Below, in pieces: positions 16,550 to 17,036 of a stretch of 38,150 nucleotides of DNA. Made by a program: the position numbers and the translations under genes. Location: the NCBI GenBank assembly GCA_025463365.1, contig JAOBWM010000038.1, forward strand, positions 1 to 38,150, written 5' to 3'. The DNA comes from Acidimicrobiales bacterium (GTDB lineage Bacteria; Actinomycetota; Acidimicrobiia; Acidimicrobiales; Iamiaceae). The notes beneath the pieces were generated by a model. The model was not told the origin of the DNA and did not search any database. It saw only the letters and a list, made by a program, of their open reading frames with translations. How positions within the stretch are numbered: position 1 is the stretch's first letter; each line of letters opens with the position of its first letter.

Positions 16550-16573
16550 CGACTCCCCAGCCGGAGGGAGTCG
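16550..16573 (+). promoter_or_regulatory. Hairpin covering the antitoxin ribosome site
   Basis: CGACTCCC (16550-16557) pairs perfectly with GGGAGTCG (16566-16573) across an 8-nt loop; the ATG follows 1 nt later. The Shine-Dalgarno GGAGGGA (16563-16569) lies in the loop and 3' arm. As DNA this could also be the antitoxin operator. Confidence 0.55.
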
Positions 16574-16574
16574 G

Positions 16575-16832
16575 ATGATCAAAAGTATGATCAAGGCCAA
16601 GGCGGAGATCACCATCTCCGGCGACCCGGATGTGTTGGCCGCGGTCCACGCCGCCGTGGAACACCACGCCGCCACCAGCGTCTCCGCGTTCTTCGAGCGC
16701 GCCGCGCAGGCCGATCTGGACGCCGGCCGCGAGCTGACCGAGATGCTGGACGAACTCTTCGAGGAGACCGGCGGTCCCCTGACCGCCGAGGAGATCGGCG
16801 CCGCCGACCGAGACCTCGGGTGCGCGACGTGA
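16575..16832 (+). CDS. Type II antitoxin (VapB-like)
   Basis: 85 aa. An N-terminal ITISGDPDVLAAVHAAV segment followed by SVSAFFERAAQADL fits the DNA-binding part of actinobacterial VapB-like antitoxins. The C-terminal DELFEETGGPLTAEEIGAAD motif is the region such antitoxins use to bind the toxin. A strong GGAGGGA box lies 5 nt upstream of the ATG. A second in-frame ATG at 16587 sits in a repeated ATGATCAA, so a 4-residue-shorter start is possible. The stop overlaps the GTG of the PIN gene by 4 nt. It would neutralise the PIN protein and repress the operon, but here the toxin is cut down. Confidence 0.75.
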   Translation: MIKSMIKAKAEITISGDPDVLAAVHAAVEHHAATSVSAFFERAAQADLDAGRELTEMLDELFEETGGPLTAEEIGAADRDLGCAT

Positions 16833-16999
16833 GTGGCATCGTGCTCGATGCCGGCGCACTGCTCGCCCGCACCGGCACATCGGATGCGATCGACGGGCAC
16901 GTCGCCGTCCTCGCCCTCGCGACGGGCCGCACCGTGCTCACCAGCGATCCCGACGACATCCGCCGGCTCGCGCCGACCGTGGTCGTCCGCCCGGTCTGA
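16829..16999 (+). pseudogene. Internally deleted PIN-domain toxin (VapC-like), 56 codons
   Basis: The reading begins SGIVLDAGALLA, the first strand of a PIN domain with its first catalytic Asp, and passes at once into RTGTSDAIDGHVAVLAL...TVLTSDPDD, the last third of a PIN domain with the Asp cluster. A normal VapC is about 125-135 aa, so some 70 central residues, including the second catalytic acid, are missing. The frame is intact on both sides. LLA could belong to either end, consistent with a deletion between short repeats. It cannot form a full nuclease fold. GTG start overlaps the antitoxin stop. Most likely a toxin relic kept with a live antitoxin. Confidence 0.75.
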
Positions 17000-17030: not shown

Positions 17031-17036
17031 TAGGGT
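17031..17036 (+). promoter_or_regulatory. Probable -10 of a leaderless cofD transcript
   Basis: TAGGGT fits TANNNT and ends 8 nt before the cofD GTG. Confidence 0.5.

Follow-up and report, generated by a model that had tools for sequence, protein, structure and literature searches.

The locus described in this study lies in a 38,150-nucleotide stretch of DNA (hereafter the window) from an Acidimicrobiales bacterium, which is contig C41 of a draft genome of 4.3 Mb in 219 contigs. It is probably what remains of a toxin-antitoxin pair that was gained by this lineage, whose toxin was killed by a 207-bp deletion through slippage or recombination, and whose antitoxin gene is now drifting. As its absence from congeners suggests, a small VapBC-like pair would have entered the lineage between gmd and cofD, and the toxin gene would then have lost 207 bp between two short repeats in the same frame, each coding for L-(I/L)-A. 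The 56-residue product would combine the sequence of the first strand with a C-terminal core. Judging by AF2 models and by the structure solved for a VapBC complex, it would lack both a working nuclease site and the surface gripped by the antitoxin, and the fragment is probably dead. The antitoxin gene would persist, but its promoter box and conserved residues would drift, as expected where no toxin is left to hold in check. The features of the locus are given in Table 1. The original prediction had the toxin coordinates, the frame, the 56 codons and the 4-nt GTGA overlap all correct, and its branch in which the toxin died recently and the antitoxin gene survived is well supported.

Table 1. 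Features of the toxin-antitoxin locus, with positions counted from the first base of the window.
Feature	Position	Strand	Description
GATGAT	16574..16579	+	Stands where relatives have a TANNNT box; differs from 31 of 31 comparable relatives
RHH-like antitoxin ORF	16575..16832	+	85 aa; 81 aa from ATG 16587
Two ATGATCAA copies	16575..16594	+	Copies at 16575-16582 and 16587-16594; candidate operator
PIN toxin remnant, VapC-like	16829..16999	+	GTG start at 16829, TGA end at 16999; 56 aa (13 N-terminal and 43 C-terminal residues)
GTGA overlap	16829..16832	+	4 nt common to toxin start and antitoxin stop
Junction D-A-G-A-L-L-A	16847..16867	+	LLA codons CTGCTCGCC at 16859-16867 could derive from either side
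TAGGGT box	17031..17036	+	Before cofD (start 17045); downstream edge of the putatively gained module

The Toxin Remnant and Its Internal Deletion

The remnant is a weak match to the PIN family (PF01850), scoring 17.4 bits (E 0.007) where the cut-off is 23.6 bits, and its PIN domain is incomplete, with 56 aa compared to the approximately 125 aa expected for a functional VapBC toxin. The best tblastn match to full-length relatives reached 65% over 48 residues (E 5e-14), with all comparisons being to distant homologs and the nearest toxin relatives belonging to other families of the same order. Residues 1–13 align with the start of the relatives and residues 14–56 with their end, and this clear homology on either side of the junction excludes a chance ORF.

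Matches were assigned to 75 distinct open frames among 114 loci, after exclusion of five loci corresponding to the window itself and of matches of fewer than 31 residues. The PIN start is in the same frame in 70 of these (L023 was counted by reading), and the five frames in which it is not (L071, L095, L045, L080, and L038) represent broken toxins. A homologous antitoxin is found just upstream in 32 of the 75, the broken L095 among them. For comparison of the junction the distant L007 was left out, giving 69 frames, 31 of which are full-length and antitoxin-linked. In every one of these 31 relatives exactly 69 codons separate two L-(I/L)-A sites, and in the remaining 38 the distance is 63 to 70 codons, compared with zero codons between the joined sites of the window, which indicates an internal loss of 207 bp. 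The fusion of the PIN start to the PIN end that was originally proposed is therefore correct, and alignment to full-length relatives, suggested at the time as a check, places the deletion.

MAFFT sets the gap after LD, with the LLA placement as an alternative, and the missing length is equal either way. Across the 69 relatives the two sites are alike at 5.04 of 9 bases on average, versus 2.93 in other registers. In no relative of the 69 are the two sites identical at all 9 bases, so that an exact repeat in the ancestor of the window is inferred; with this qualification, the earlier suggestion that LLA at the junction reflects microhomology is well supported by the similarity of the sites in relatives. 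Slippage between in-frame repeats would account for the deletion and also for the retained frame; since the codons of the two repeat sites lie in one frame, retention of that frame is no evidence of selection.

It is very improbable that the organism in fact has the full-length toxin, with the deletion arising in assembly or belonging to a minority allele within a mixed population. Whilst a draft of so many contigs may invite this reading, the missing segment has a length exactly divisible by three and lies between in-frame similar sites 207 bp apart, as would be expected of biological slippage. Moreover, the usual assemblers do not collapse repeats as short as nine bases or less, which also counts against an artefact.

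Occurrence of the Short Form

Of 397 genomes of the order, 138 gave matches (E up to 0.001), as did 45 of 395 genomes of the class and 15 of 396 of the phylum (E up to 1e-5; the sets overlap), and genome_contigs yielded at least 14 matching loci. The original prediction had raised the possibility that the short form recurs widely in relatives; however, among the matches listed for the order, class, phylum and genome_contigs, the window's own copy is the only one fused across the junction. The short form was also absent from the plasmids, phages and viral contigs searched. The order list covers the stronger matches, and a short form that aligned with both halves should rank close to its top.

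Several candidates for further short forms were rejected. Loci L085, L086, L087, and L107, with matches that start at residues 2–4, sit in frames of 136–175 aa. The frames of L116, L117, and L118 run to a contig end, and in the toxins L115 and L127 the front half is missing or disrupted; none of these five has a fused start.

Predicted Structure of the 56-Residue Product

The AF2 alignments comprised 12 of the at least 14 genome_contigs loci, with L071 and L080 omitted as broken. The full-length relative L070 was modeled with a pLDDT of 93 and the order b1-a1-a2-b2-a3-a4-b3-a5-a6-b4-a7-b5, and the model was matched by Foldseek to VapC structures of Rickettsia, Shigella and Mycobacterium (3zvk, 3tnd, 4chg); a search of the PDB with the L070 sequence gave no match. 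The stretch missing from the remnant corresponds to residues 14–82 of L070, from the end of a1 through most of a5, and on comparison of the AF2 models the remnant is without equivalents of helices 2–4, strands 2–3 and most of helix 5. The remnant was itself modeled with a mean pLDDT of 82, rising to about 90 from residue 21 on and lying at 56 for residues 1–10, and strand 1 is not formed. It is thus a small C-terminal core that the remnant is predicted to keep. The order of strands in the PIN sheet is 3-2-1-4-5, which would leave strands 1, 4, and 5 adjacent and is the one structural argument for a fold of the remnant. The remnant carries the acidic residues D7, D19, D22, and D40, and the central active-site position is deleted. 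Across 12 full-length relatives no Glu is invariant; near the position of the central Glu of VapC, these relatives have a nearly invariant Gln in an AQxWR stretch.

According to the accessible part of the report on the Shigella VapBC complex, the VapB tail packs among VapC helices 1–4 and reaches Asp7, Glu42, and Asp98 (PMC3384007). With the VapB-contacted helices lost and strand 1 not formed in the model, both antitoxin binding and nuclease catalysis by the 56-aa product are unlikely. It is accordingly the less favored branch of the original prediction that the mini-protein still binds the antitoxin, given the loss of these helices and the lack of a short-form relative among the matches listed. 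More generally, it is very unlikely that the 56-aa product works as a mini-protein, be it through antitoxin binding or as a nuclease-inactive co-repressor or decoy. The open frame, the kept translational overlap, the confidently modeled C-terminal core and the retention of conserved columns would all suit such a protein, but only the start of a1 is left of the helices a1–a4 that VapB grips in the part of the Shigella report consulted, strand 1 is unplaced in the AF2 model, the short form occurs in no relative among the matches listed, and the promoter box is off consensus.

The remnant agrees with the relatives at 16 of 17 columns conserved in at least 90% of the 31, where the relatives themselves miss 0 to 3, suggesting that the loss is recent on the time scale of the family, or that the remaining part is still constrained. 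The frame is also free of stop codons. A selected short protein would also show both of these features, which is a caveat to the explanation of a dead fragment.

The Antitoxin Gene and Its Upstream Region

The 85-aa antitoxin ORF aligns over its full length with 31 relatives, its frame being retained, and ATG 16587 is the start that aligns with the antitoxin start of the relatives. Alignments to the antitoxins of full-length relatives cover 81–87 residues at 40–45% identity, with E-values down to 1e-12; a search of Pfam gave no match, and within its own genome the antitoxin matches nothing but itself. The original description of the antitoxin as intact holds for the ORF, which is complete, but not for its conservation or its -10 box, which has drifted. 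Of 22 columns conserved in at least 80%, the protein deviates at 6, more than in 30 of the 31 relatives (L023 is higher, at 9 of 24). One of these changes is K to E, and falls in the strand expected to contact DNA in the RHH fold, a fold and a strand that we take this antitoxin to share.

In 31 of the 32 antitoxin-linked relatives (L095 counted), TANNNT is found exactly 7 nt before the antitoxin ATG. The exception, L023, has no in-frame ATG, hence the box is present in all 31 comparable relatives. From its sequence and position, this box looks like a leaderless promoter, and by consensus the -10 box of the window is weaker. A GGAGGG stretch precedes ATG 16575 and could serve this alternative start. 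At 16550–16573, just upstream of the antitoxin ATG, CGACTCCC and GGGAGTCG make up a perfect inverted repeat of 8 bp around an 8-nt loop; the repeat would cover the GGAGGG stretch. The antitoxin genes of relatives, such as L070 and L019, have a common GTATGRT...GGTATG stretch, which is perhaps an operator as well as a promoter, and the window has its two ATGATCAA copies instead. A simple promoter/terminator scan gave no result, and PADLOC reported no system.

It is unlikely, though less so than a working mini-protein, that the antitoxin has been kept for its own use, through anti-addiction, cross-neutralisation or regulation, with the toxin fragment a mere relic. This reading concerns the fate of the antitoxin and is compatible with the preferred explanation of the fragment. 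Changes are seen in both the probable DNA-contact strand and the upstream repeat, a pattern that a new specificity might produce, and the drift of the antitoxin could represent such a specificity instead of decay. Orphan antitoxins of Klebsiella that still inhibit toxins are described in the accessible part of one survey (PMC7192599), and anti-addiction roles are discussed in the corresponding part of a review (PMC7354431). However, there is no match to the antitoxin elsewhere in its own genome, drift in a single genome is indistinguishable from decay, and the weaker -10 box also speaks against continued use. As improbable as an assembly artefact is a combined scenario, in which a nuclease-dead half-PIN, composed of strand 1 and the strand 4–5 core and co-produced with the antitoxin, would tune DNA binding by the latter, with the antitoxin and ATGATCAA co-shifted to a new specificity.

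Probable Gain of the Module Between gmd and cofD

The gene cofD was detected in 10 of the 12 genomes of the genus, the window's own included. No match to the antitoxin or to PIN (E up to 0.01) was found in the stretches examined of the nine congeners with cofD, in eight of which gmd is the upstream neighbor of cofD; L066 shows no gmd. The gaps at this place span 64 bases in L061, 508 in L062, 1057 in L063, 1038 in L067, 22 in L064, and 25 in L065. The absence of the module from congeners, together with gmd standing beside cofD in eight of them, suggests that the pair was gained in the lineage of the window and then died. Gain of a toxin-antitoxin pair at this place is the simplest reading of the sequences, loss of the module from all congeners being less simple. 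A TAGGGT-like box approximately 8 nt before the cofD start is kept in the congeners L061, L062, L063, and L067, and is probably cofD's own near-leaderless promoter.

Comparison With Known Toxin-Antitoxin Systems

The locus resembles VapBC (PF01850) in its order of antitoxin, short overlap and toxin, and in an antitoxin homologous to those of full-length relatives, which themselves pass the PF01850 cut-off and give an AF2 model similar to VapC structures. It differs in that the toxin of the window lacks 69 central codons and falls under the PIN cut-off, and the family of the relatives, without an invariant Glu and with Gln in AQxWR, is not textbook VapC.

The locus belongs to a known kind, representing a common decay route of toxin-antitoxin pairs. 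A survey of Klebsiella counted 2253 orphan antitoxins, and its accessible part explains many of these as degraded pairs (PMC7192599); orphan antitoxins are likewise treated as remnants, regulators or anti-addiction factors in what was available of the review (PMC7354431). As in such degraded loci, an antitoxin gene persists here beside a ruined toxin that has full-length homologs, but the toxin lost 207 bp from its interior, in frame and between similar sites. Unlike the usual degraded loci, gain and loss can both be placed, as the module is absent from congeners. A parallel from the same class is L095, which also has a broken toxin of this family beside a homologous antitoxin, but its toxin has a frame break and no internal deletion, and its -10 box is still TACGAT. 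No internal in-frame VapC deletion is described in the titles or abstract openings of the literature searched.

The locus therefore offers an unusually clear mechanism for a dying chromosomal pair, with gain at a defined site, loss of the toxin between similar in-frame sites that belong to the fold, and then drift of antitoxin and promoter, and as a by-product it reveals the conserved, apparently leaderless promoter of the family; apart from these, the case is ordinary. The two deletion sites lie in conserved motifs, so the same deletion could recur in the family. The genome of the window also holds a second PIN fragment (L009, contig C73, 1501–1602), which matches only profile positions 84–117, lies in a 64-aa frame and is probably another broken VapC.
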